Shown: piece after piece, positions 3,950 to 16,493 of the stretch
How positions within the stretch are numbered: position 1 is the first letter of the stretch
Layout: each line of letters opens with the position of its first letter
From: Hyphomicrobiales bacterium
GTDB lineage: Bacteria > Pseudomonadota > Alphaproteobacteria > Rhizobiales > Xanthobacteraceae
NCBI GenBank assembly: GCA_003133345.1
Contig: PKXB01000228.1
Coordinates: 4,980 to 21,472 of the forward strand
Direction of reading: 5' to 3'
DNA: 16,493 bases
Made by a program: the position numbers and the translations under genes
Notes under the pieces: generated by a model
The model's database searches: none
Seen by the model: only the letters and a program-made list of their open reading frames with translations
What the model was told of the DNA's origin: nothing

Positions 3950-3995
3950 ATATTGGAGCCGAGTGCCTGCGAAATGGGCTCTAATCAGGGGATTT

Positions 3996-5720
3996 ATGGC
4001 CATGGCAGCCTCGCCGAGTATCTCGATTGCGATCATTGGCAGCGGTGGCGCCGGCGCCCTGACCACCGTGGATTCCCTGCTCGAAACGGCCAGCGCCGCC
4101 GGCTGGCATGGCCTGTTTACCCGCACCATGGGCCCCCAGATCCGCGGTGGTGAAGCGGCCGGGCTACTTCGCCTAGCGGTTCACCCGGTCGAATGTCTGC
4201 CCGACCGGTTCGACCTCATGATCGGCATCGACTGGCTGAACGCTCACCGTTTCGGCGCTGAAATCAAGGCCGGACCGCAGACTTTGGTGGTCAGCGATCC
4301 GCGCGGCGGGGATCTACCGCCGATGGTGACCCAATCCGGGGCCCGCGTCGTTGAAGTTCCAATGAAGGAGATGGCCAAGGCCATCCCCGACGGCCGTCCC
4401 AACATGATCGCGCTCGGCATCGCAGCTCGGCTACTGGGCTTTACCGTCGAGCAGGCGTTCGCGCCGATCGAGAAACGTCTTGTCGACAAGGGGTCGGCCG
4501 CCATCGCAGCCAGCCTCGCCGGCATCAAGGTCGGGTTCGGCGCGGCAGCCGGCATCGACTTTGGCATGCAACTCGCCGCGCCGACGCCGAGCGCCGCCCG
4601 CCGGTGGTTGCTGTCGGGCAACGAGGCGACCGCGCTCGGCGCCATCCGCGGCGGCATTCGCTTTGCCGCCGCATACCCGATCACGCCGGCGACAGAAATC
4701 CTCGAATGGCTCGCGCCAAACCTCAGCAAAGTCGGCGGGACGCTGCTGCAAGCCGAAGACGAACTCGCGGCCATCAATATGATCATCGGCTCATCCTATG
4801 GCGGTACGCCGGCGCTGACGGCAACCTCCGGCCCCGGACTTTCGCTGATGATCGAAGCGCTTGGTCTTGCCACCTCCGCGGAAATTCCAGTCGTGGTCGT
4901 CGACGTGATGCGCGGCGGGCCATCGACGGGCATTCCCACCAAGTCCGAGCAGGGCGACCTGAATATCGCCATCTACGGCATGCACGGCGACGCGCCGCAT
5001 CTCGTGCTAGCGCCGCAATCGGTCGGTGACTGCGTGTTCACGACGCAATGGGCGACCTATCTCGCGGAAACGCTGCAAGCCCCGGCCATCATTCTATCCG
5101 ACCAGTTCATGGGCCAGTCACGTGCCGCCATCGAACGGCCCGCCGACGTCGCGTTCATCGGTGCACGCAGCATCGCCAGCGAGATTTCTGGCACCTACAT
5201 GCGCCACGCCATGACGGCCAACGGCGTGTCGCCGATGGCCATTCCGGGAACGCGCGGCGGTCAATATACGGCCGACGGTCTCACCCATTCCGAGCGCGCG
5301 ACCCCGACCAGCGGAGCCGCCGACCATCTGGCCCAGCTCGACAAGCGGCGTGACAAGCTCGATCACTTCAACTTCGGCGACCATTGGGCGAGCATCGAAG
5401 GTAGCGGCGATCTCGCGGTCATAACCTGGGGTTCGCTCACCGGCGCCGCGCGCGAAGCGGTCGAACGTGCGGCCGCCGATGGAATCAAAGTCCGCATGAT
5501 CGCGCCGCGCTTGCTGACGCCGATCCAGCCGGAACGGCTCGCAGCCGCCCTTGCCGGTGTCAAACGCATCCTGGTCGTCGAGCAGACCCACGGCGGCCAG
5601 TTCAACAAATTCCTGCGCGCCCACTACGACCTGCCGGCGCCGGTTCGCGTGTTCAACCGGCCGGGACCGCTGCCGATCACCGCCGGCGAAATCCATTATG
5701 CGATCGCGGAATGGAGATGA
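3996..5720 (+). CDS. korA: 2-oxoglutarate:ferredoxin oxidoreductase, gamma-alpha fused subunit KorA
   Basis: This 574-residue protein fuses the gamma domain of 2-oxoacid:acceptor oxidoreductases (about 8-190, with GSGGAG at 15-20 and RTMGPQIRGGEAAG at 43-56) to the alpha domain (about 205-560). The alpha domain carries the YPITP substrate/CoA motif at 227-231, LQAEDELAAI at 251-260 and SGPGLSLM at 278-285. With KorB it oxidises 2-oxoglutarate and CoA to succinyl-CoA and CO2 while reducing ferredoxin. In Thauera this is the electron donor system for benzoyl-CoA reductase, and the neighbouring bcrC fits that role. The frame opens at GTG 3963. ATG 3996 or ATG 4002 is preferred because AGGGGA lies at 3987-3992. 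The 2-oxoglutarate assignment comes from the fused architecture and context; another 2-oxoacid is possible. Confidence 0.85.
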   Translation: MAMAASPSISIAIIGSGGAGALTTVDSLLETASAAGWHGLFTRTMGPQIRGGEAAGLLRLAVHPVECLPDRFDLMIGIDWLNAHRFGAEIKAGPQTLVVSDPRGGDLPPMVTQSGARVVEVPMKEMAKAIPDGRPNMIALGIAARLLGFTVEQAFAPIEKRLVDKGSAAIAASLAGIKVGFGAAAGIDFGMQLAAPTPSAARRWLLSGNEATALGAIRGGIRFAAAYPITPATEILEWLAPNLSKVGGTLLQAEDELAAINMIIGSSYGGTPALTATSGPGLSLMIEALGLATSAEIPVVVVDVMRGGPSTGIPTKSEQGDLNIAIYGMHGDAPHLVLAPQSVGDCVFTTQWATYLAETLQAPAIILSDQFMGQSRAAIERPADVAFIGARSIASEISGTYMRHAMTANGVSPMAIPGTRGGQYTADGLTHSERATPTSGAADHLAQLDKRRDKLDHFNFGDHWASIEGSGDLAVITWGSLTGAAREAVERAAADGIKVRMIAPRLLTPIQPERLAAALAGVKRILVVEQTHGGQFNKFLRAHYDLPAPVRVFNRPGPLPITAGEIHYAIAEWR

Positions 5721-5722
5721 CC

Positions 5723-6547
5723 ATGTCGAGCGTCGCCTATAAACAAGCGGACTACAAATCCGACGTGAAGCCGATCTGGTGCCCCGGTTGCGGCGACTAT
5801 CATGTGCTGATGTCATTCGGCCGCGCCTTCGCTCAATTGGGCTTGCCGCCCGAGAAGATCGCCGTGATATCCGGCATCGGCTGCTCATCGCGGATTCCCG
5901 CCTACACCAATTGCTACGGCTTTCACGGCGTGCACGGCCGCTCGCTCGCGCTCGCCGCCGGCCTGAAAGTGACACGGCCCGACCTCACGGTCGTTGTCGC
6001 CAGCGGCGACGGCGACGGCTACTCGATCGGCGGCAACCACTTCCTGCACGCCTGCCGCCGCAACATCGACATGACCTATGTGGTGATGGACAACCACATC
6101 TACGGCATGACCAAGGGGCAGCCCTCGCCCACCACCGAGCCGGAATTCGACACCGCGCTGTCGCCGGGCGGCACCGGCGTGGCGCCATTCCACCCGCTGG
6201 TGGTCGCGCTCGCTTCGGGAGCGAACTTCATCGCCCGCTGCTTCTCCGGCGAACCCAACCAAACCGCCGACGTGCTGGCGCAAGCGATCAAACATCCGGG
6301 ATTCTCCTTCGTCGAAATCCTCAGCCCCTGCGTGACTTTTCGCCCCGATGAAAAAGCGTGGAAGGATATGGTGCACCCGGCCCCGGTCACCGAGACTTCG
6401 GATCAGGGCAAGGCGGCGCGCCGGCTGATGACCGACGACGGCTTCAACATCGGCATTCTGTACCGCGGCAATCGCCCGCCGTTTCAACCCGCCATCGGCG
6501 CAAGCAACGTCGATCTGTCGGAGCTGGAGAAGGACTTCGAGCTATGA
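5723..6547 (+). CDS. korB: 2-oxoglutarate:ferredoxin oxidoreductase, beta subunit KorB
   Basis: This is the thiamine diphosphate-binding beta subunit, 274 residues from the chosen start. Likely ligands of the internal [4Fe-4S] cluster are Cys20 and Cys23 (WCPGCGDY), Cys54 (GIGCSSR) and Cys203 (SPCVTF). The ThDP/Mg motif is GDGD at 95-98 with Asn105 (GGNH). A second signature, NHIYGMTKGQ, lies near 124-133; its Lys differs from the Gly in the paralogue at 13517-14353. Three in-frame ATGs are available (5711, 5717, 5723). The last has GGAG six bases upstream, while the first two overlap the korA stop at 5718-5720. Either way it is coupled to korA. It ends in an ATGA overlap with the next gene. 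Confidence 0.88.
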   Translation: MSSVAYKQADYKSDVKPIWCPGCGDYHVLMSFGRAFAQLGLPPEKIAVISGIGCSSRIPAYTNCYGFHGVHGRSLALAAGLKVTRPDLTVVVASGDGDGYSIGGNHFLHACRRNIDMTYVVMDNHIYGMTKGQPSPTTEPEFDTALSPGGTGVAPFHPLVVALASGANFIARCFSGEPNQTADVLAQAIKHPGFSFVEILSPCVTFRPDEKAWKDMVHPAPVTETSDQGKAARRLMTDDGFNIGILYRGNRPPFQPAIGASNVDLSELEKDFEL

Positions 6548-7074
6548 GCAAGTCAGCGGGCACTCCGAAGGTCGCCAACCTCAACGATCTGCTGGCGGTC
6601 GCCTATCAGATCGAGATCGACGCGGTCGACCGCTATAATCTGCTGGCCGATCAGATGGAAACCCACAACAATCCAGAACTGGTCAAGGTGTTCCGCGATC
6701 TGGCCCGCGCCGAAGGCATCCATGGCGAGGAAATCCGCCGCCTCGCCGGCGATTTCGACGTCGCCGCGCACGCCCGCCAGATTGCGAAATTCGAGCGCAG
6801 CGAAAGCCCGGAAGAGGCCGAGCTCGGCTCCGCGCACTACCTGATGACGCCGTGGCATGCCTTGCAGCTGTCGCTCGCCGGCGAAAAGCGCGCGCTGGCC
6901 TATTTCACCTCGATCGTGGAGACGGCAAAGGATCCGAAGGTCAAGACGCTGGCGGCGGAACTGGTCGAAGAGGAGGCCGAACACGTCAGCCTCGTGCATC
7001 GGCTGCTGCTCCGCTATCCGAAGCCGAGCGAGTCCTGGGCGGACGATCTGGATCCGCCGGTTTCGCAGGAATAG
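6544..7074 (+). CDS. Ferritin-like (rubrerythrin-type) diiron protein
   Basis: This 176-residue, mostly helical protein has the two-ExxH pattern of ferritin-like diiron carboxylates: Glu24, Glu57-xx-His60, Glu114 and Glu144-xx-His147. It lacks the C-terminal rubredoxin domain of classical rubrerythrin, since there are no cysteines at all. By family knowledge such proteins handle peroxide, oxygen or iron in the cytoplasm. The frame is open further upstream, but ATG 6544 overlaps the korB stop as ATGA and has AAGGA about nine bases before it, so it belongs to the korAB operon. I infer a role in protecting or supplying iron-sulfur proteins such as Kor or benzoyl-CoA reductase. The exact activity cannot be read from the sequence. 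Confidence 0.75.
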   Translation: MSKSAGTPKVANLNDLLAVAYQIEIDAVDRYNLLADQMETHNNPELVKVFRDLARAEGIHGEEIRRLAGDFDVAAHARQIAKFERSESPEEAELGSAHYLMTPWHALQLSLAGEKRALAYFTSIVETAKDPKVKTLAAELVEEEAEHVSLVHRLLLRYPKPSESWADDLDPPVSQE

Positions 7075-7126: not shown

Positions 7127-8458
7127 TCAATTCGCCTTGTTGCGCCGGTCGACGACCCGCACCGCCTTGCCCTGCGAGCGCGGCACCTCGCCTTCCGGCT
7201 TGACCACGACCTTGCAGGTCACGCCGATCAACGACTTGATATGGTGGGTGACCTCTTCGGCCTTGCGGAAACGGTCGCCGGTGAACCCAGGTGCCAGCTC
7301 GACTTCGACGGTCATCGCATCGAGCGCGCCGTCGCGCGTCAGGATGATCTGGTAGTGCGGCGCAATCCCCGGAAAGCCGACCAGGACCGCTTCCACCTGC
7401 GAGGGATAGACGTTGACGCCGCGAATGATGAGCATGTCGTCGTTGCGGCCGGTGACCCGCAGGATACGCACATGCGTGCGGCCGCAGGCGCAGGGCTGGT
7501 TGCTCAGACGCGTAATGTCGCGCGTGCGGTAGCGAATCATCGGCTGCGCTTCTTTGGTCAACGTCGTGATGACCAGTTCGCCGGTCGACCCCGCCGGCAG
7601 CTGCTGCTGCGTTTCCGGATCGATGGTCTCGAACAGGAAATGATCTTCCCAGCCATGCAAGCCGGACTGGATGCCGTGACACTCGCAGGCCACGCCCGGC
7701 CCCATGATCTCGGACAAGCCGTAGACATCCACCGCCTTTAGCCCGAGCCGCGCCTCGAGATCGCGGCGCATGGCGTCGCTCCACGGTTCCGCCCCTAACA
7801 GGCCAACCCGCAAGGACGATTGCTTCAGGTCGACGCCCATTTTCTGCGCGATCTCGGCGATATTGAGCGCGTAGGACGGCGTGGCACACAGCACGTTGGC
7901 TTTGAAGTCGTTGATCAAGGTCACCTGACGTTCGGTGCCGCCGCCCGATATGGGTACGACAGTGCATCCGAGCCGCTCGGCCCCGTAGTGCGCCCCGAGG
8001 CCGCCCGTGAACAGGCCGTAGCCGTAAGCGTTGTGCACGATATCGCCAGGCAGCGCGCCGGCGCAGGCGAAACAGCGCGCCATCAAATCCGCCCAGGTAT
8101 CGAGGTCCTGCTTGGTATAGCCGACGACGGTCGGCTTCCCGGTTGTTCCCGACGAGGCGTGCAGGCGCAAGAGCTGCTCGCGCGGCACGGCAAACATGCC
8201 GAATGGATAATTGTCGCGCAGATCGCTTTTCACCGTAAAGGGAAAGCGCGCGAGATCGGCGAGCGACTTCAGATCGCCCGGCTTGACGCTGGCGGCATCG
8301 AACTTCCGCTTGTAATGCGGGACCTTGTTATAGGCGCGCTCGACCGTGGTCTTGAGACGGGCGAGTTGTAATGCGTTCAGTTCGCTGCGCGGCATGGTCT
8401 CGGCGTTGCGGTCGAACATATAGATGGGCGCATCGGCAACCGCGTTTTGCATACTCAT
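7127..8458 (-). CDS. paaK: Phenylacetate-CoA ligase (PaaK/PadJ-type)
   Basis: This 443-residue adenylate-forming enzyme activates phenylacetate to phenylacetyl-CoA with ATP and CoA in the cytoplasm. Motifs in order are the P-loop SSGTTGKPT at 102-110, AEPWS at 223-227, YGLSEIMGPG at 246-255, YRTRD (310-314, with the ribose-binding Asp) and RGVNVYPSQVE at 346-356. Lys431 in the C-terminal domain is the expected adenylation lysine. Two cysteine pairs (258/260 and 323/325) resemble metal-binding sites seen in some PaaK proteins. The length is typical. The start is supported by GGGAG eight bases before ATG 8458. It lies 79 bases downstream of the PadC-PadD fusion and is probably the last gene of the pad operon. 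Its context points to the anaerobic route rather than to the aerobic paa epoxide pathway. Specificity could extend to hydroxyphenylacetate. Confidence 0.92.
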   Translation of the reverse strand: MSMQNAVADAPIYMFDRNAETMPRSELNALQLARLKTTVERAYNKVPHYKRKFDAASVKPGDLKSLADLARFPFTVKSDLRDNYPFGMFAVPREQLLRLHASSGTTGKPTVVGYTKQDLDTWADLMARCFACAGALPGDIVHNAYGYGLFTGGLGAHYGAERLGCTVVPISGGGTERQVTLINDFKANVLCATPSYALNIAEIAQKMGVDLKQSSLRVGLLGAEPWSDAMRRDLEARLGLKAVDVYGLSEIMGPGVACECHGIQSGLHGWEDHFLFETIDPETQQQLPAGSTGELVITTLTKEAQPMIRYRTRDITRLSNQPCACGRTHVRILRVTGRNDDMLIIRGVNVYPSQVEAVLVGFPGIAPHYQIILTRDGALDAMTVEVELAPGFTGDRFRKAEEVTHHIKSLIGVTCKVVVKPEGEVPRSQGKAVRVVDRRNKAN

Positions 8459-8537: not shown

Positions 8538-10130
8538 TCATGGCAAGGTCCATCCCGGCTTGACCGCCGGTCCGGGCACGCCGGACCCGCGTATGGGCGT
8601 ATGGGGTAGCGCGAAACCCTGATTGTAGGCGGCCCGCGTGATGAGAATGAATTTTATCGCCCAGCCGGTGGCGAAAACCGAGAGCCCGGCGAGCGCGAAC
8701 AGAACCGCGCCGGCGACCGGCAGGATCAGGCCAAGTGCGACCAGCACTACCGGAAGCACGAGGCCGGCGGCGAAAAACCAGAGTCGACAGGCCGTAAAGA
8801 TTTCGAGCGTACGGGTCGGCGCACCTTCGCTTGCAAGCGCGTTGAGGTATCGCCACCAGGTCCAGATCCGAATTGTGGCCAGCACGACGAGCGCGATTGC
8901 CAGCGGTTTGGCCGCGCTGCCCAAGGCCGGCAGGAAAGCCGCCAGCAGCAGGAACAGCCCGCAGCCCTCGGCAAATCCAGTCGCCATGATGAAAGCGATC
9001 ACGCGCGGGTTGCGCCAGGCCGGTATGCCCTTGGACTGTTCCAGGATCATGCCCTGGCAGAACAGAAAGAGCAGCGCGACTATCGCCGCCGCCACCAGCA
9101 CCGTCGGGCGGCCGGACCAGAGCGCAAAGAGCGCGAGCGGAAACAGCAGGCCGGCGACCCACGCTTCGCGCGACATCCACGAGCGTTGCGGCTGGCGCAG
9201 CACGTGAAGGAAGCGCAACGGCCGGCCGATCTTGAACATCAGCAGCGTCAGGCCGCATAAAATGAGCGCGAGCGCAGCAAGGCCCGGCGCCAATATCGGG
9301 GTCCCACCAAGGCTGGCGATAGTGGCAAAGCCGAACAGTCCGGTGCCGGCTCCGCCACACAGGAAATTCGCCGAGGCTTTCCAATCCCAATGTTTCTGAT
9401 GCCACGGCTCGACCCCGCGGCTGCGAATGCGCCCGGCTTGCGCGTCCGCGAGCGCGGGCGCGATATCCGGCGCCGGAGCAGCCGCTGCCTTGTCATAGAG
9501 ATAATGGAAGCCCGGCTCGGTGGCGAGCTCGGCGTGCATGCGGAAACTCTTGTGCGCACGCAGCAGCTGGGAGACGTTGCTGTCGGGATCTTCAACATCG
9601 CCAAAATGCAATGCGTCCGCGATGCAGGAATTGACGCAAGCCGGCGTCGCGCGCGAATCGCTGCCTGGCGTCAAACCGTTCTCGATGCCGAAATCGATGC
9701 GATCGGAACAGAACGTGCATTTTTGTGCGACCCCGAGACGCGCGGGATCCTCGCGTTCAATCTCGTTCTGCATCCCCTCGTCCCCATAGGCGAAGTCCTC
9801 CTTGGTGATTTTGAAGCGGGCCTGATAGGGACAGGCGACATCGCAATAAGCGCAGCCGATGCAGATGTCGTAGTCGATGGTGACAATGCCGTCAGCGCGT
9901 TGGCGCGTCGCCGTCGTCGGGCAGACATGCATGCAGGGCGGGTCGGCGCAGTGCTGGCAGCCAACCGGCACAAAGGTGCGATTGACATTGGGGAACGAGC
10001 CGGCTTCGACGTCGAGCACCGAGCGCCATTGCACCGCCGGCGAAGTGGCATTGGCATGCCGGCAGGCCGCGGTGCAGGTCTGGCAGCCGACGCAACGCTC
10101 GAGATCAGCGATCATCGCCCAGCGGGTCAT
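8538..10130 (-). CDS. padC: Phenylacetyl-CoA:acceptor oxidoreductase, fused PadC (Fe-S) and PadD (membrane anchor) subunits
   Basis: One 530-residue frame contains two subunits that are separate polypeptides in Thauera and Aromatoleum as I know them. Residues 1-215 are a DmsB-like electron-transfer module with four [4Fe-4S] cysteine sets: 13/16/19/23, 58/61/66/70, 90/93/96/100 and 138/141/165/169. After an Ala/Pro-rich linker (about 214-245), residues 250-500 carry about eight hydrophobic helices of the NrfD/DmsC anchor type. It should pass electrons from PadB to the quinone pool. No signal or twin-arginine sequence is visible, so the Fe-S domain should face the cytoplasm, where phenylacetyl-CoA is. 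The ATG overlaps the padB stop as ATGA (10130-10127). The reading frame runs through the linker without interruption, so this is a real fusion unless the assembly is wrong. Confidence 0.85.
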   Translation of the reverse strand: MTRWAMIADLERCVGCQTCTAACRHANATSPAVQWRSVLDVEAGSFPNVNRTFVPVGCQHCADPPCMHVCPTTATRQRADGIVTIDYDICIGCAYCDVACPYQARFKITKEDFAYGDEGMQNEIEREDPARLGVAQKCTFCSDRIDFGIENGLTPGSDSRATPACVNSCIADALHFGDVEDPDSNVSQLLRAHKSFRMHAELATEPGFHYLYDKAAAAPAPDIAPALADAQAGRIRSRGVEPWHQKHWDWKASANFLCGGAGTGLFGFATIASLGGTPILAPGLAALALILCGLTLLMFKIGRPLRFLHVLRQPQRSWMSREAWVAGLLFPLALFALWSGRPTVLVAAAIVALLFLFCQGMILEQSKGIPAWRNPRVIAFIMATGFAEGCGLFLLLAAFLPALGSAAKPLAIALVVLATIRIWTWWRYLNALASEGAPTRTLEIFTACRLWFFAAGLVLPVVLVALGLILPVAGAVLFALAGLSVFATGWAIKFILITRAAYNQGFALPHTPIRGSGVPGPAVKPGWTLP

Positions 10131-12865
10131 GGTGCCCCCGCAAGGCGCGTCACCTTGACCTTGACCAAGTCGGCGCTCGATCCGGTCGCGTCGGTGAGAT
10201 CGAGCAGCATCGGCACCAGCGCGTTCATGCTCGGCGCGTGGAAATCCTTGGCATAGGGCGTCACCCAGTGATCGAACTGGCCGATCATTAGCAACGTGTC
10301 GGGGCGGATGCCCTCGCGCAACATCACCTTACCTTTGGTGCTGTTGAGTGGCGAGCGCACTTCGACCAGGTCGCCGTCGGCGATGCCGAGTTTCTCGGCC
10401 GCGCTTTCGTTCATCACCACGCTGCCGTGGCCCATGACGTTGTCGGCGACTTCCTTGATCAGCTGGACGCCGACATTGTTGCCCCAGGAATATTGCATGC
10501 TGCGCGAGGTCACGAGCCAGAACGGATAATCGGCGATGCTCACCTTGAAGTGTTTGGCGAGCGCGTCCTCCCAAAGTCCGTTCAAGTCGCGCCAATGCGG
10601 CAGCGGCTCATACTCGGCGAGCTGCTTGTCCCACCAGGTGATGCCGTGCTCGTGCAGGCGCCGCTCCAGCTCCTTGCCGACGCGCAGCAGCCGCTCCTGG
10701 TAGGGTTGCTCGAAGCGCAGGCCCTGTTCGACCAGCTTCGGGTAGAGGTACCACATCAGGCGCGAGAACGGCTTCACGCGAAAACCGTTGGCGCGGAACC
10801 AGTCGAGGCCTTGCGTCTCGGCGCCATCGGTGATCTCCGCGCTCGCCGCCCGGCAGCTGGCATCCCAGATCTCTTCGACGCTGTGCGCCTTCGTCACGTC
10901 GAGTGAGAAATCGTAATTGTCGCCTTTAAGCTTGACGTCGGCACCACCGCGATTGATCGCAGTATTGTACTCTTCAAGTAGACCGGTGCGGCGCGCGAGC
11001 TCGGTTGCGATCCATGTTAAATCTTTCGCCTCGCCCTGCGGGGGCACCGCCGGATCGCGCAAGGCGAAGCCCTGATGGTCCCAAAACTGCTCGATGTATT
11101 TGGTGCCGCCGATCCGCATCAGTTGCAGGCCCTCGAGGTCGGTGCAATCTGGCAGCAGCACGTCGGCGACATGATTGGTTTCATCGCGCGTGAAGGCGAA
11201 GCAAACGGTGAACGGGAACTTCGCCATGGTCTCGCCGACCGCCTTGGTGTCCCAGAATGAGATCGCCGGATTGATGCGGTAGACCAGCCATATGTCGGGT
11301 GGCGGCGCATGCGGCAGCTTGTCGAAATCCTCCTTCTGCATCATCCAGGCCAGGTGGGTCGGCCCGAGCGCCTGGCTCCAGGCCGAGTTGGCGACCAGCG
11401 GCACCAGCGTGCGATGGGCGCTGCGCGCGGTCGGGCGCGAAATCCACTCCTCCTTGCTGGTCGGGTTCATCGGATAATGCATGAAACCGTCGGGGCCTGG
11501 CGTGACGCTCGACCAGCGATTGTCGGCCGGGCGATTGAGCCGCACCGTGGTGCCGAGCGTGCCGCCCGGAACGTCGAGGGCGCCGAGCAGGCAGGGAATG
11601 AGCGTGCGCGCCCAGCAGCACTCGTAGCCGCCCCAGCCATTGTTAACGGTCTTGCCGAATGCGATGGCGACCGGCCGAAACGGCAGCGTCATACCTTCGA
11701 TCTCGATCGTCTCGCCGACGTGGGCATGGGCAAGAAACTCATTAGTGACGCGGCGGATGCTGGCAGCCGGCACGTCGCAGATTTTCGCGGCCCATTCCGG
11801 CGTATAGCTCTTCACGTGGGCGACCAGTTGCGCGAAGGCGGGACTGACCTTGGCCGCGCGATGCGTGATGATTTCTTGATCGGCGCCGACCTCGATGCCG
11901 TCGACCGTGAACGTGCCTTCGAGCGCCGGATCGATATCCGGCGTGTCGTACGGCAGCGCGCGCCCGCTCGTTAGATCGATCACCAGCGGCTTCTGCGTCG
12001 CTGGATCGCGCAGGAAAAATTCGTCGGGTCCGATGAGATAAGGCGACGAGGTGCGGACTTTCAGAAACGGAAGGTCGAGTTTTTCGCGCGCGTGTTCGTG
12101 CAGCAGCACGTGGATCATGGCGAACAGGAAGGCGGAGTCGGTCTTCGGCTTGATCGCGATCCACTCGGCCGAGCAGGCGCCGGTCACCGAGAGGTGCGGT
12201 TCGATTTGCACGCGCTTCATGCCGCGATTGCGCGCGTCGGCGTGGCGCTTGACCCCGCACACGCCGCCCGAGGCTTCGACATTGGCGCCGAACGAGAGGA
12301 CATAGTCGCAGAGCGGAGTATCGGGGCACACGGTGAACGCCCGGTGCCAGAGCTCACCGTAGAGGTGTTCCGAGTGGGTGCATTTGACGCCTTGACCGGA
12401 ACCGAAACTCAAATCGACGGGTCCCCACGCTGAGAGGAAGGCCGGCAGCGTGCCCATATAGGCGGGCGGCGTGCCGCCGCCGCCGAAGCTGGCGGCGAGC
12501 CGGGGAAAACCGCCGGCGTCGGTGAGGCCGGCCGCGCGCGCAGCCTTGAGCTTGTCGGCCACCAGATCGAGCGCTTCGTCCCACGATATGCGCACAAAGC
12601 CCGGATCCTCGTGCCGGCCCTTCTTCGGGTTGGTGCGCTTCATTGGATAGAGGACGCGGTTCGGGCTGTAGGCCTTTTGCACCAGCCCAAATGCCTTGAC
12701 GCAGGCCTTGCCGCCGCCGGGATGGATCGCGGCGGCTTTGAAATTCGGATTGATCTCGGTTGCAACCCCGTCCTGGATGCGCACGGTCAGCAGGTCCGGC
12801 CCCGCTACGCATTGGTAGCAATAGGTCGAAACGATGCGTTCCTGCGGCGGCTTGCTTCCCGGCAT
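10127..12865 (-). CDS. padB: Phenylacetyl-CoA:acceptor oxidoreductase, molybdenum catalytic subunit PadB
   Basis: This 912-residue protein belongs to the DMSO reductase (bis-MGD) family. It catalyses the four-electron alpha-oxidation of phenylacetyl-CoA to phenylglyoxylate and CoA. The N-terminal cluster region has Cys16, Cys19 and Cys55, but Pro stands where the third cysteine of the usual Cx2Cx3C motif belongs (CYQCVAGP). Cys162 in GQGVKCTHSEH is a candidate Mo ligand. IEPHLSVTGACSAEW followed by IKPKTD (about 221-243) matches MGD-binding sequence, and the C-terminal cofactor domain covers about 780-905. There is no twin-arginine signal, consistent with a cytoplasmic CoA-ester substrate. 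ATG 12865 has GAGG eight bases upstream. The stop overlaps the padC-padD start. Substrate assignment rests on the recognised PadB-like sequence and on the pathway context. Confidence 0.88.
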   Translation of the reverse strand: MPGSKPPQERIVSTYCYQCVAGPDLLTVRIQDGVATEINPNFKAAAIHPGGGKACVKAFGLVQKAYSPNRVLYPMKRTNPKKGRHEDPGFVRISWDEALDLVADKLKAARAAGLTDAGGFPRLAASFGGGGTPPAYMGTLPAFLSAWGPVDLSFGSGQGVKCTHSEHLYGELWHRAFTVCPDTPLCDYVLSFGANVEASGGVCGVKRHADARNRGMKRVQIEPHLSVTGACSAEWIAIKPKTDSAFLFAMIHVLLHEHAREKLDLPFLKVRTSSPYLIGPDEFFLRDPATQKPLVIDLTSGRALPYDTPDIDPALEGTFTVDGIEVGADQEIITHRAAKVSPAFAQLVAHVKSYTPEWAAKICDVPAASIRRVTNEFLAHAHVGETIEIEGMTLPFRPVAIAFGKTVNNGWGGYECCWARTLIPCLLGALDVPGGTLGTTVRLNRPADNRWSSVTPGPDGFMHYPMNPTSKEEWISRPTARSAHRTLVPLVANSAWSQALGPTHLAWMMQKEDFDKLPHAPPPDIWLVYRINPAISFWDTKAVGETMAKFPFTVCFAFTRDETNHVADVLLPDCTDLEGLQLMRIGGTKYIEQFWDHQGFALRDPAVPPQGEAKDLTWIATELARRTGLLEEYNTAINRGGADVKLKGDNYDFSLDVTKAHSVEEIWDASCRAASAEITDGAETQGLDWFRANGFRVKPFSRLMWYLYPKLVEQGLRFEQPYQERLLRVGKELERRLHEHGITWWDKQLAEYEPLPHWRDLNGLWEDALAKHFKVSIADYPFWLVTSRSMQYSWGNNVGVQLIKEVADNVMGHGSVVMNESAAEKLGIADGDLVEVRSPLNSTKGKVMLREGIRPDTLLMIGQFDHWVTPYAKDFHAPSMNALVPMLLDLTDATGSSADLVKVKVTRLAGAP

Positions 12866-12941: not shown

Positions 12942-13517
12942 CTAGGTACCAACGTTCACTTCAGCGTTATTGCCGGCAGCCGCTTGCACGTGCACCGCGT
13001 AGCCCGCCTTGAGCGCATCCATGTTGAGATCGAGGAAGCCGCGCGGGGTCTCGGCGCGTACCGCCTGCTCGATCCGTTTGCGATCGCAGATATTGCTCAG
13101 CGCGACCAAGGCGCCGAGCGCAACGATGTTCGTCACCCGCTCGCTGCCCAGCTCCAAGGCGGTGCGGCTGAGCGGCAGGTGATAGCGGCGGTAATTGCCG
13201 GCCGGCAGCTCGGGGCACAGCCGCGTGTCGGCGATGACCAGTGCGCCCGGTTTGAGCAGCGGCCAAGACGGTTTGATGGCGAGCCGGTCGAGCAGCACCA
13301 ATTGATCGAGCGCGGTCGTGATTGGGAAGTCGACCTCGCCGTCCGAGATCACCAGGTCGGCATTGCAGTAGCCACCGCGCGAGGTCGGCTCATAGGTCTG
13401 CGACTGAGCAACGTGCTTGCCGCCGGCAGCAAGGGCATCGGCCAGTATCTTGGCACTGAGGATCAGACCCTGCCCGCCGGTACCGCCGATGCGAATTTCT
13501 ATCCGCGCGTCCTGCAT
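12942..13517 (-). CDS. 2-oxoacid:ferredoxin oxidoreductase, gamma subunit (probably phenylglyoxylate-specific)
   Basis: This 191-residue stand-alone gamma subunit has the family motif GGTGGQG at 11-17 and the segment QTYEPTSRGGYCNADLV at about 40-56. The length is typical of KorC and PadE-type gamma subunits. It completes a set with the alpha and beta subunits just upstream. From its place before padB I infer that the complex converts phenylglyoxylate and CoA to benzoyl-CoA and CO2. The beta stop and this start share a GTGATG: GTG 13520 is possible, but ATG 13517 has GGGAG seven bases upstream and is preferred. A general 2-oxoacid enzyme of the KorDABC type cannot be excluded. Confidence 0.8.
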   Translation of the reverse strand: MQDARIEIRIGGTGGQGLILSAKILADALAAGGKHVAQSQTYEPTSRGGYCNADLVISDGEVDFPITTALDQLVLLDRLAIKPSWPLLKPGALVIADTRLCPELPAGNYRRYHLPLSRTALELGSERVTNIVALGALVALSNICDRKRIEQAVRAETPRGFLDLNMDALKAGYAVHVQAAAGNNAEVNVGT

Positions 13518-14353
13518 CACGAGGCTCCCTTGCGGGCAGCCGCCGCGCGCCGATAGGTGGCGCCGTATTCGGGACGGTCATTCCTCGCCAAGATGCCGGT
13601 CGGCAGCGCATTCGAGCGGAACGGCGTGTCGACCGTGTCGAGATATGCGCTGGGGCGGATCTCGCTCTTCTGGCGCATGATCATCTCCGACGACGAGCCC
13701 ATGTCGTTCTTGCGTCCGAAGATCTCGGTGCAGTCGGACTGGACTTCGACGAAGGCGAACCCCGGATGCTCGAGCCCGGCCTTGATCAGTTCCTTGAGCT
13801 TGGGGACATGGTGGGTCACTTCGCGACCGACAAAGCCGGCACCGGCCGCGGTGGCGAGCGCGCAGGCGTCGAAATGGGGCTCTTGATTGCCGAGCGGAGT
13901 GGTCGTCGTCAGCCGTGTTTCCGACGTGGTCGGCGAAACCTGGCCTCCGGTCATGCCGTAGACCTCGTTGTTGAGCATCAGGCAGGTCAGCTTGAGATTG
14001 CGCCGGCAGGCGTGGATCAAATGATTGCCGCCGATCGCCAGGCAGTCGCCGTCGCCGGTGATGACGACGACATGCAGATCGGGACGCGCCAGTGCCAAGC
14101 CCGTTGCATAAGCCAGTGGCCGGCCGTGCGTGACATGGAAGGTGTTGGCGTCGATATAGGCCGATAGCCGCCCGGCGCAGCCGATGCCGGAGACGACTGC
14201 GAGTCTGTCCTTGTCGAGACCGAGATCATGGATCGCCCACAACAAAGCGCGCAACGCGATGCCATGCCCGCAACCAGGGCAGAGGAAGTGCGGCATCATC
14301 TCCTTGCGGAGATAGTCGCGGACGTCGAAATCGGCGGCGGTGTCGATGAGCAT
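13517..14353 (-). CDS. 2-oxoacid:ferredoxin oxidoreductase, ThDP-binding beta subunit (probably phenylglyoxylate-specific)
   Basis: This 278-residue KorB-like subunit has cluster cysteines 25 and 28 (CPGCGH), 59 (GIGCAGR) and 208 (SDCTE). The ThDP/Mg motif is GDGD at 100-103 with Asn110, followed by NNEVYGMTGGQ at about 128-138. It carries TGGQ where the plus-strand KorB has TKGQ. The protein is far shorter than the beta subunit PadI of Aromatoleum evansii (over 400 residues, from memory), so this is not a PadEFGHI-type enzyme. The alpha stop and this start overlap in GTGATG. The preferred ATG is 14353, and the GTG just before it is also possible. It is a paralogue of korB in this window, sharing the IGGNH..HACRRN stretch. 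Confidence 0.85.
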   Translation of the reverse strand: MLIDTAADFDVRDYLRKEMMPHFLCPGCGHGIALRALLWAIHDLGLDKDRLAVVSGIGCAGRLSAYIDANTFHVTHGRPLAYATGLALARPDLHVVVITGDGDCLAIGGNHLIHACRRNLKLTCLMLNNEVYGMTGGQVSPTTSETRLTTTTPLGNQEPHFDACALATAAGAGFVGREVTHHVPKLKELIKAGLEHPGFAFVEVQSDCTEIFGRKNDMGSSSEMIMRQKSEIRPSAYLDTVDTPFRSNALPTGILARNDRPEYGATYRRAAAARKGAS

Positions 14354-15516
14354 CACGCCCCCCTCGCCAGCGCCGTGGCGCGCGCGGCGATGTCGCTAGG
14401 CGTGATCGCCTCGCCGCTGAAAAGATGAAGGCCTTCGACCGCCACGCCGGCGAGCACGCGCTCGACCACAAGCCGGAGCTGACCGGTGTTCATTTCCGGC
14501 ACAAGCACGGCGCGCGCCTTGGCCGCGGCTTGGCGCAGCTGCTTTTCCGGGAACGGCCAGAACGTAATCGGGCGGAACAGCCCGACGCGCAGGCCCTGCG
14601 CGCGGCACTGCTCGACCGCGCGCGTGGCGGCGCGGGCGCTGATGCCGATGGCGACGATGACCACGTCGGCATCGTCGCAGTGCAGCGCTTCGGATGAGTC
14701 GATCAGGTCGCGATGGCGCTCCAACTTGGAAAAGAGCCGTGACAGATTGCGGGTGACCGCTTCCGGCTGCTGGGTCGGGAAGCCGCTCTCGCTATGCGTC
14801 AGGCCGGTGGTGTGCGTGCGATAGCCGTCGCCCGGCCTGGCCATGGCGGGGATGGCATCGCTGCCGCCGTCATAGGGCTGGTAGGCCGCGCGCGGCCCGC
14901 TCGCCCATTTGCGTGTCGCGCTGGCGTGCCCGGCGCCGTCGAGCGCGACGGTTTCCGAGAGTTGCGCGATCACCTGATCGTACAACAGCACCACCGGCGA
15001 GCGGCATTGCTCGGCCAAATCGAAAGCGCGGAGGGTCTCGCTGTAGATCTCGCTCACCGAGGCGGGCGTGAGCACGATGATCGGATAATCGCCATGGCTG
15101 CCCCAGCGCGCCTGCATGATGTCGGCCTGCGACGGCCGGGTCGGCATGCCGGTGGAGGGGCCGCCGCGCATGACATTGACGATGACGCAAGGGATCTCGG
15201 CGCCGGCGGCGTAGCCGATATTCTCCTGCTTGAGCGAAAATCCCGGGCCGCTGGTCGCGGTCATGGCTTTGACGCCGCCCATCGAGGCGCCGATCACGGC
15301 CGCCATCGAGGCGATTTCGTCTTCCATCTGCACGAACACGCCGTCGACTTCCGGCAGACGGCGCGCCAGCCGTTCGGCGATTTCCGACGACGGCGTGATC
15401 GGGTAGCCGGCGAAAAAGCGACAGCCGGCGGCGATCGCTCCCAACGCGCAGGCGTGGTTGCCGGAGATCAGCTTCACGGCGCTTTTGCCGGTGAGCGCAG
15501 TGTCGATGGCGTTCAT
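14353..15516 (-). CDS. 2-oxoacid:ferredoxin oxidoreductase, alpha subunit (probably phenylglyoxylate-specific)
   Basis: This 387-residue alpha subunit has no fused gamma domain. Motifs are GNHACALGAIAAGCRFFAGYPITP (about 19-42, YPITP at 38-42), MEDEIASMAAVIGAS (64-78), SGPGFSLKQENIGYA (89-103) and NVMRGGPSTGMPTRPSQ (114-130). These follow the alpha domain of korA closely and mark it as a KorA/VorA-type subunit. The start is an ATGA overlap with the upstream fusion gene (15516-15513). The separate alpha, beta and gamma genes follow the order of archaeal-type korDABC operons. It presumably binds CoA and the 2-oxoacid at the alpha/beta interface. The inferred substrate is phenylglyoxylate, because padB and paaK are in the same operon and a separate KorAB already exists. 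Confidence 0.85.
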   Translation of the reverse strand: MNAIDTALTGKSAVKLISGNHACALGAIAAGCRFFAGYPITPSSEIAERLARRLPEVDGVFVQMEDEIASMAAVIGASMGGVKAMTATSGPGFSLKQENIGYAAGAEIPCVIVNVMRGGPSTGMPTRPSQADIMQARWGSHGDYPIIVLTPASVSEIYSETLRAFDLAEQCRSPVVLLYDQVIAQLSETVALDGAGHASATRKWASGPRAAYQPYDGGSDAIPAMARPGDGYRTHTTGLTHSESGFPTQQPEAVTRNLSRLFSKLERHRDLIDSSEALHCDDADVVIVAIGISARAATRAVEQCRAQGLRVGLFRPITFWPFPEKQLRQAAAKARAVLVPEMNTGQLRLVVERVLAGVAVEGLHLFSGEAITPSDIAARATALARGA

Positions 15517-16478
15517 TGGGCAAGCCCCTGTTGCGCAACGGCACCCGCGCTATCGAGGTGCACCCGAATCGCGAAATCCGGACACAACCATTCGCACAGC
15601 CGGCACCCAGTGCACCTTTCCGGCTCGGCCAGTTCCGCGATGCGGTCCGCGTTCAGGCGCAGACAGTGCTCGGGGCACATTTTCACGCAGATATCGCAGC
15701 TCTTGCACCAAACCGGATTGATTTCTAGACGCACGCGGTAGGCCGCGTCGGCAGGCGTCGGCGTTCTCGTCACCGGGGCTTCCACCGCCGGCGTGGTGTT
15801 GCGCGCCTCCTCGATCCAGCCGCGACCGCGGCGGAATGCTTCCAGATTGACCGCGACGGTCTTCTTGGGCACGAATTCGGCGACCGTCCGCTCCCAATCC
15901 GTTGTCGAAAACTCCAACGCGGTCGACAGCGCGCCGAGCAGGACGACGTTGGCCGCGCGCTCGTTGCCGAGCTTCTCGGCCATGTCGGTGGCGTCGATGG
16001 CGTAGGCTTCGCCGACATGGGTGACGACCTCGGTCGGCGTCTCTTTCGAATAGCGCAGCGGCGCGCCCGGGCGGCGGTTGAGACAAGCGAATGGCGGCAC
16101 GATGCGTTTGGTGTCGCAGATGAAGATGCCGGTGCCGGCTTTCAGGAACGGCAGCCAGCGCAAGCCTTCGGCCCATTCCAGCGCGACCAGAATATCGACG
16201 TCGCCCTTCGGGATGGTCGGCGACCAGACACGCTTGCCGAAGCGCACATGGCTGAACACCGAGCCGCCGCGCTTGGCCATGCCGTGCACTTCGCTCTGCT
16301 TGACTTCGAAGCCCTGGCTCTGCGCCAGCAAAGCCAGCACCTTGGAGACCATGATGACGCCCTGCCCGCCGACGCCGACGATCAGGACGTTGAAGGCGTC
16401 ATCCGCGCGATCAGCCTTCAGCGCCGGGGAATCCGGCGACGCAGGGTCGGGACGCACGGTGGTGACTGGATCTCTCAT
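15513..16478 (-). CDS. Fusion of an IorB-like gamma domain and a 2[4Fe-4S] ferredoxin (delta) domain
   Basis: In this 321-residue protein, residues 28-220 match the IorB-type gamma domain of indolepyruvate/arylpyruvate oxidoreductases: GVGGQG at 35-40, SEVHGMAKRGGSVFSHVRFG at 62-81 and WSPTIPKGDVD at 85-95. Residues 250-305 are a dicluster ferredoxin with Cys258/261/264/268 and Cys289/292/295/299. A Thr/Pro-rich linker (about 228-246) joins them. The ferredoxin part probably serves as the delta subunit of the downstream alpha-beta-gamma enzyme. The IorB part implies a partner IorA, likely the gene just beyond the right edge. The operon thus carries two gamma-type domains. ATG 16478 overlaps a possible upstream stop as ATGA, but no strong Shine-Dalgarno is visible in the 15 bases available. 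Confidence 0.8.
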   Translation of the reverse strand: MRDPVTTVRPDPASPDSPALKADRADDAFNVLIVGVGGQGVIMVSKVLALLAQSQGFEVKQSEVHGMAKRGGSVFSHVRFGKRVWSPTIPKGDVDILVALEWAEGLRWLPFLKAGTGIFICDTKRIVPPFACLNRRPGAPLRYSKETPTEVVTHVGEAYAIDATDMAEKLGNERAANVVLLGALSTALEFSTTDWERTVAEFVPKKTVAVNLEAFRRGRGWIEEARNTTPAVEAPVTRTPTPADAAYRVRLEINPVWCKSCDICVKMCPEHCLRLNADRIAELAEPERCTGCRLCEWLCPDFAIRVHLDSAGAVAQQGLAQ

Positions 16479-16493
16479 TGCATCACCGGCGCG
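16475..16493 (-). CDS. Possible C-terminal end of an upstream coupled gene (IorA-like expected)
   Basis: Reading in from the right edge, one frame gives Ala-Pro-Val-Met-Gln-stop, with its TGA at 16477-16475 overlapping the next ATG. The ATGA overlap matches most other junctions in this operon, but only five codons are visible. The IorA identity is a guess from the IorB-like domain downstream. Confidence 0.3.

Follow-up and report, generated by a model that had tools for sequence, protein, structure and literature searches.

Several members of the 2-oxoacid oxidoreductase superfamily resemble, in one part or another, the system described here. In chain B of the Moorella oxalate oxidoreductase and in PFOR, a gamma domain is followed by a ferredoxin domain within a single chain, and both parts belong to one enzyme. 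PadEFGHI, the NADH-dependent phenylglyoxylate dehydrogenase, includes the NAD-binding subunit PadH. In enzymes of the KorDABC/OorDABC type the ferredoxin is a separate small delta subunit and the genes follow the order D-A-B-C; by its structure title, the solved complex of the 2-oxoglutarate:acceptor oxidoreductase of Helicobacter pylori, OorDABC (8ys5/8ys6), contains the delta subunit. As to IorAB, the available part of PMC9765128 describes the direct conversion of phenylpyruvate to phenylacetyl-CoA by the Aromatoleum enzyme, and the channelling of phenylalanine towards phenylacetyl-CoA by IorAB is already published. The present work concerns a window of 16,493 nucleotides (the whole stretch analysed, positions 4980-21472 of its contig, with 'nn' gaps at both ends) from a Hyphomicrobiales genome of 3.43 Mb that is 83% complete, whose closest matches are labelled Pseudolabrys and Hyphomicrobiales. 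Its subject is the gene iorB::korD, whose product, P0001, joins an IorB-type gamma domain through a variable linker to a KorD/OorD-type two-[4Fe-4S] ferredoxin domain. The fusion is a conserved family, and the five genes iorA, iorB::korD, korA, korB and korC form one conserved unit.

Related work on aromatic 2-oxoacids is known to us from parts of the sources. In those parts, IorA3B3 is proposed for phenylpyruvate in Desulfococcus multivorans, with the phenylglyoxylate step unclear (PMC5109826), a table for strain EbN1 lists IorAB, PadBCD and PadEFGHI apart (PMC2907700), and aromatic oxidoreductases of gut acetogens are assayed in Escherichia coli (PMC13290082). The iorAB of PMC6365646, as far as the available part of that source goes, is an unrelated pair resembling isoquinoline oxidoreductase. 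No description of an IorB-ferredoxin fusion or of an iorAB-korABC cassette was found in the titles and abstract openings searched, full texts lying outside that scope. On many public records the protein is called 'indolepyruvate ferredoxin oxidoreductase beta subunit', a name that masks the ferredoxin half. The fusion and its parts are as follows.

15513..16478, minus strand: iorB::korD fusion, P0001, 321 amino acids (open reading frame, Pfam, NCBIfam; present in 80 of the 80 related loci kept)
15813..16394, minus strand: IorB-type gamma domain, residues 29-222 (NCBIfam/Pfam, tree, Foldseek)
15729..15812, minus strand: linker, residues 223-250, variable in sequence and similar in length (alignment identity, spacing, predicted confidence)
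15561..15728, minus strand: KorD/OorD-type 2[4Fe-4S] domain, residues 251-306 (closest solved relative 8ys5_D)

The reading frame runs from an ATG at 16478 to a stop at 15513. Pfam places POR (130 bits) on residues 37-219 and Fer4 (32.6 bits, over its cut-off) on 286-305, and its dicluster ferredoxin models cover 252-302 with scores under their cut-offs. The best-scoring NCBIfam models are those of the IOR beta subunit for the N-terminal part and OorD for the C-terminal part, each below its cut-off: NF005322, indolepyruvate oxidoreductase beta, reaches 198 bits over residues 26-220 (cut-off 237), TIGR03334 reaches 150 bits on the same domain (205.8), and the OorD model reaches 46 bits over 253-306 (93). 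The eight cluster cysteines (258, 261, 264, 268, 289, 292, 295 and 299) are kept in 81 sequences, gaps or one X aside. Mean pairwise identity is 70% in the gamma domain and 72% in the KorD domain and falls to 20% in the linker, while the distance between W221 and W257 stays within 29-47 residues (median 35). The predicted fold has a mean predicted local distance difference test score (pLDDT) of 78, with a low-confidence linker in which residues 234-242 score below 50. In Foldseek searches the N-terminal domain matches gamma subunits of 2-oxoacid oxidoreductases (3g2e, 8ys5_B, 3on3); the gamma-delta chains of oxalate oxidoreductase and PFOR cover more of P0001, at a root-mean-square deviation of roughly 14-16; matches to small ferredoxin subunits are weak. 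By sequence, the top solved relative of the C-terminal domain is 8ys5_D of OorDABC (43 bits, 53 with a profile). Compared with six reference ferredoxin stretches, this domain is closest to Sulfurovum OorD (44% identity, 56 bits) and next to Ilyobacter KorD (46 bits), and against two IorA tails it scores 44 and 28 bits. A chance fusion or an assembly join was considered as well, and is ruled out because all 80 related loci carry the fusion with conserved cysteines. The sequence-only reading of this window, in which an IorB-like gamma domain was joined to the ferredoxin of a different oxidoreductase type, is thus borne out by the domain models and by conservation.

The type of the gamma domain was assessed in a quick tree of 45 gamma domains, of which the broad grouping alone is used, given that nine of its 42 inner branches are starred and some branches are very long. 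The N-terminal domains of the fusion group with six IorB sequences, with a support of 93 in the Shimodaira-Hasegawa-like approximate likelihood ratio test (SH-aLRT), the stand-alone KorC of the cassette groups with those of Ilyobacter and Sulfurovum (SH-aLRT 81), and PadE groups with PorC (SH-aLRT 97). PadE is represented by two genes named by their place beside a PadG over its cut-off, plus one looser assignment, and some of the KorC sequences, extracted by script, are over-extended to an upstream start or cut (lengths 40 to 480). On this tree the assignment of the N-terminal domain to KorC or PadE is rejected, in agreement with the earlier assignment to IorB.

The remaining genes of the cassette are the following.

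16483..16493, minus strand: 3' end of iorA as printed; the body lies outside the window (L011:1063-2838, product P0014), and the frame beyond the assembly gap is uncertain
14353..15516, minus strand: korA, alpha subunit, P0002, 387 amino acids (NCBIfam PRK08659)
13517..14356, minus strand: korB, beta subunit, P0003, 279 amino acids (Kor/Oor models, solved relatives)
12942..13520, minus strand: korC, stand-alone KorC-type gamma subunit, P0004, 192 amino acids (Kor/Oor models, gamma tree)

With PRK08659 (cut-off 411) KorA reaches 553 bits, and KorB and KorC match Kor/Oor models with scores under the cut-offs. From iorB::korD to korC each pair of neighbours overlaps by 4 bases, and no separate korD stands among these genes in the window. 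A genome scan with seven fusion sequences yielded 224 related stretches, and the counts given here use the best 80. Since similarity to the fusion determined their ranking, its presence in all of them is partly built in, and the patterns by which they were found lie in the N-terminal domain. The whole cassette, in the same order and on the same strand, is present in 64 of the 80 loci; the other 16 miss only genes beyond contig ends, and there is no exception in order or strand (0/80). The iorA gene accompanies the fusion in 78 loci, and the remaining two stop at contig ends. The iorA and korABC neighbours of the fusion architecture, whose neighbours the sequence-only reading had proposed to list, are thus the same in these loci wherever the contigs extend far enough. 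Among 60 relatives, the fusion is found at an identity of at least 61% in five, one of which is truncated at the end of its contig, and among 398 genomes of the phylum it is found in three, the source genome included; these are the same three in which KorA is found at E<=1e-80. Records titled Alpha-, Beta- and Gammaproteobacteria carry the cassette, including named strains of Rhodopseudomonas, Afifella and Shimia.

The iorA gene, expected past the end of the window, lies directly upstream of the fusion. Its product, P0014, has 591 amino acids as printed, carries both thiamine-type Pfam domains, reaches 674 bits with the IOR-alpha equivalog TIGR03336 (cut-off 651) and is 43% identical to the annotated IorA of Peptoclostridium. 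The early end of P0014 raised the idea that IorA had lost its ferredoxin tail to IorB. This was rejected because an 'nn' scaffold gap right past the window end truncates the 3' end of this copy and the tail of the relatives is whole: the second cluster motif is present in G020, G028, L044, L045 and L046, so IorA keeps a two-cluster tail of its own.

With IorAB, then, the cassette shares an IorA over the equivalog cut-off and the type of the N-terminal domain. With OorDABC, which KorABC resembles most among solved bacterial complexes, it shares the order D-A-B-C, D being the C-terminal domain of the fusion, and KorA, KorB and the fused ferredoxin all match chains of that complex. In contrast to OorDABC, the delta subunit is not a separate small ferredoxin; it is fused to the gamma subunit of another enzyme, with iorA alongside. 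It also appears to differ from oxalate oxidoreductase and PFOR, in that the gamma part is of IorB type, the delta part resembles KorD/OorD and KorC is present as a second gamma subunit. The annotated gene order is ferredoxin, korA, korB, korC in Ilyobacter and ferredoxin, alpha, an unlisted gene and gamma in Sulfurovum, where the unlisted gene gave no clean translation in the frame used; therefore the fused ferredoxin occupies the korD slot of korDABC, and iorB has probably been fused to a neighbouring korD. Five more of the 398 phylum genomes have an IorB match without the ferredoxin part; in each of these loci iorA stands next to iorB, four of them also have paaK, and a match to korA, korB or korC is absent from the 12 kb searched. 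One of these loci, L145, shows a weak match of 41 bits to the tail of another alpha chain. The simplest history is that korDABC was placed behind iorAB and that the stop of iorB was then lost; an unfused iorAB-korDABC ancestor or intermediate was not found among the 398 genomes. The gene-context search covered Pseudomonadota and three plasmid regions of other phyla (a fourth plasmid region that was opened belongs to an Azoarcus).

We consider it rather probable, on the strength of the sequence comparisons, that two enzymes are tethered to each other through the fusion, the arylpyruvate oxidoreductase IorAB and the Oor-type oxidoreductase KorDABC. The N-terminal domain would serve as gamma subunit to the adjoining IorA, the alpha/beta chain of an arylpyruvate:ferredoxin oxidoreductase; the C-terminal domain would serve KorA, KorB and KorC as their ferredoxin (delta) subunit and complete with them an Oor-type 2-oxoacid oxidoreductase; and a flexible linker of about 35 residues would tie the two. 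IorA would convert phenylpyruvate or another arylpyruvate to phenylacetyl-CoA using its own clusters, and KorABC would oxidise a second 2-oxoacid and pass the electrons to the fused ferredoxin. The order of the cassette and the joint travel of its genes suggest that the two enzymes act as one tethered unit in aromatic metabolism. From the domain identities, the korD slot, the cassette and the IorA encoded upstream, which are all observed, we infer a single physical complex and its substrates. Several points weigh against this. Conserved gene order speaks for joint function and not for contact; the 80 loci were chosen by likeness to the fusion, and the 144 weaker of the 224 stretches fall outside the sample; the Peptoclostridium IorA tail (44 bits) nearly equals Ilyobacter KorD as a match to the C-terminal domain; and, by analogy with Moorella chain B and PFOR, where gamma and ferredoxin form a chain of one enzyme, the fused ferredoxin might serve IorA. 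A stronger version, a supercomplex bridge with two thiamine active sites (one for arylpyruvate, one for a second 2-oxoacid) on a shared cluster wire, the second site having been recruited to phenylglyoxylate in PadB lineages so that a single machine carries out both decarboxylations on the way from phenylpyruvate to benzoyl-CoA, seems unlikely. If the tether is real, a ferredoxin-tied pair of 2-oxoacid oxidoreductases would be an unusual organisation of low-potential electron flow; it makes a direct claim on the wiring of aromatic amino acid metabolism, and the named carrier strains make culture tests possible.

The substrate of KorABC is considered here together with the genes around it. Read from right to left, the minus strand carries iorA (almost all outside the window), iorB::korD, korA, korB, korC, padB, padCD and paaK, and a second oxidoreductase lies on the plus strand.

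10127..12865, minus strand: padB-like molybdoenzyme subunit, P0005, 912 amino acids (Molybdopterin Pfam; no NCBIfam PadB model matched), which we take to be PadB, partly from its gene context
8538..10130, minus strand: padC-padD in one frame, P0006, 530 amino acids (names from context)
7127..8458, minus strand: paaK, phenylacetate-CoA ligase, P0007, 443 amino acids (TIGR02155, 624 bits, cut-off 646)
3963-6547, plus strand: second 2-oxoacid oxidoreductase, a gamma-alpha fused KorA (P0008) and a KorB (P0009) (NCBIfam)

The sequence-only reading saw a composite machine in which KorABC was the phenylglyoxylate module. The joint travel of the five genes favours the composite machine. As a general role, phenylglyoxylate oxidation is not supported, given that half of the 50 cassette genomes searched show no close PadB, that Rhodopseudomonas pseudopalustris has a separate pad cluster and that KorABC is most like OorDABC. 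It is still quite possible, if short of probable, that in this operon KorABC and the fused ferredoxin are the phenylglyoxylate:ferredoxin oxidoreductase, which would replace the NADH-linked PadEFGHI and, with IorAB and PadB/PadCD, run phenylpyruvate to benzoyl-CoA. Phenylglyoxylate is plausible here because padB and padCD directly follow korC; padB, padCD and paaK stand behind korC on the same strand both in the window and in L047. The benzoyl-CoA route is represented at the left window end, on the minus strand, by Had, Oah and Dch (569, 674 and 406 bits, over cut-offs of 339, 464 and 293). In the source genome, at 83% completeness, the best PadG match (174 bits) stays under the NCBIfam cut-off; 16 of the 25 genomes with PadB likewise lack a PadG over the cut-off, and 7 of the 25 have no PadG match in a stand-alone alpha-sized frame, as judged from frame lengths. 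Bradyrhizobium REEB386 has a PadB of 81% identity and the cassette on a different contig, with no PadG match. The Pad models themselves are not reached by the window's proteins (KorA with PadG 82 bits against a cut-off of 700, KorC with PadE 41 against 300, KorB with PadI 32 against 700), and nothing PadH-like is found among the genes assigned in this operon. The distribution of PadB speaks against phenylglyoxylate. PadB was searched in 50 of the genomes that carry the 80 loci, many of them incomplete metagenome-assembled genomes: 25 have it at an identity of at least 55%, 5 more have only relatives of 29-34% and 20 have none at E<=1e-60. On the cassette tree (51 labelled rows; L051 was left out as too short) at least 11 changes of the PadB state are needed, while no variation is seen at the tested substrate-facing positions: KorA T41, R117, T122 and L239 in 71 cassette sequences, and KorB R63, M135 and G137 in 69. 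The four KorA residues are identical in Sulfurovum OorA, Ilyobacter KorA and the other alpha chain of the window. Searches in 51 genomes found PadG over its cut-off in nine, all carriers of PadB, and Oah relatives in 25. In R. pseudopalustris (L143) the pad cluster lies away from the cassette and holds padB, two padCD pieces, PadG (791 bits, over the cut-off) beside padB, paaK and genes whose position, size or similarity suggests PadE, F, H and I. Within the fetched flanks, padB above 50% identity occurs in 7 of the 80 loci. The PadB-free cassettes and separate pad clusters indicate that the cassette is independent of PadB, the two forming one gene run in the window and L047. An alternative enzyme for the step may be the PorC-PorA-PorB set with a GltD-like NAD(P) protein bearing a ferredoxin tail, on contig C31 of the source genome (L142:2968-7277), where most models align with the alpha chain only beyond its first 76 residues (from residue 77); in L150 a set of PorC, GltD, PorA and PorB adjoins padB.

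We hold tentatively the possibility that KorABC is a 2-oxoglutarate oxidoreductase of the ordinary kind, its link to IorAB being a matter of supply, since aromatic transamination uses 2-oxoglutarate, and of a shared electron outlet. It is compatible with cassettes with or without PadB; among solved structures KorB comes closest to H. pylori OorB (8ys5_C, 258 bits), and OorA ranks second for KorA. The T and L at two invariant KorA positions would fit the 2-oxoglutarate-specific KorAB of Hydrogenobacter thermophilus in the available part of PMC5020499. The positions were mapped to Sulfolobus T257a, R344a, T349a, D468a, K49b and L123b by alignment for KorB and by motif for KorA. In the Sulfolobus enzyme, according to the same part of that source, K49R shifts the preference to pyruvate and L123N to 2-oxoglutarate, and the Arg of KorB at the K49 position (R63) would speak against 2-oxoglutarate, although the K49 rule is not transferable because H. 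pylori OorB has Arg there too. The second KorA/KorB pair already present in the window is a further argument against. For this operon, phenylglyoxylate is our tentative first candidate and 2-oxoglutarate a near-equal one, and another 2-oxoacid appears less likely than either. It is quite unlikely that the fused ferredoxin serves IorA, as in the gamma-delta chain of oxalate oxidoreductase, with KorABC a mere neighbour: the domain order is that of chain B and PFOR, both Foldseek matches, but IorA already has its two-cluster tail, the best match of the C-terminal domain is OorD, KorABC would be left without a delta subunit, and none of the five unfused IorB loci shows a korA, korB or korC match in the 12 kb searched. 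Phototrophs synthesise phenylalanine from phenylacetate, a process for which our literature search found no paper, and the cassette might run in reverse there, carboxylating arylacetyl-CoA and succinyl-CoA towards aromatic amino acids and glutamate. The Rhodopseudomonas and Afifella loci, where paaK lies directly behind korC, would suit this, but many carriers are not known to be phototrophs, and the liv-type transporter upstream and the benzoyl-CoA genes of the window indicate breakdown, which makes it very unlikely.

Two KorB positions, 75 and 132 (window 14132-14134 and 13961-13963), may be a lead towards substrate markers. They adjoin the conserved HGR and YGMTGGQ motifs. Of 25 rows with PadB, 18 have V/V, and of 24 without it, 15 have T/I; these columns were chosen post hoc, and a comparison of independent pairs gives no significant difference (for position 75, 3.0 the same way, 0.5 the other way and 6.5 without difference, median p 0.5). 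In the two rows that combine PadB with T/I (L065, L069), the neighbour of padB is another oxidoreductase.

As for the surroundings, of the 54 loci that offer 2.5 kb of room, 21 have paaK behind korC on the same strand and within 1.5 kb. No single further partner was found among the annotated cassette flanks, where several clustered open reading frames without a Pfam match may be spurious. Upstream of iorA stands a liv-type transporter set (L011:3455-7988) whose five genes match Liv models best, below the cut-offs, and transporter clusters related to it recur in up to 18 of the 80 loci. Regulators near cassettes are of Rrf2 type (L054:7566-8039, a cluster in 5 loci) and Lrp/AsnC type (L049:1612-2163, 4 loci). 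In Emcibacter and unnamed Alphaproteobacteria (L084, L090, L091, L098), a U32 peptidase, SCP2, carbonic anhydrase and nitrate reductase beta occur near the cassette, perhaps an anaerobic-respiration neighbourhood. The P0008/P0009 pair stands back to back with Had, an arrangement that L151 (Bradyrhizobium REEB386) repeats beside paaK-padCD-padB, with no cassette genes in the 14.8 kb examined. The padC/padD gene gives a single tblastn piece in the window, L047 and L151, and two pieces in L143 and several betaproteobacterial loci. Downstream of the plus-strand KorB lies a rubrerythrin-type protein (6358-7074, plus strand), with a Pfam match of 52 bits from residue 77 of a long open reading frame.

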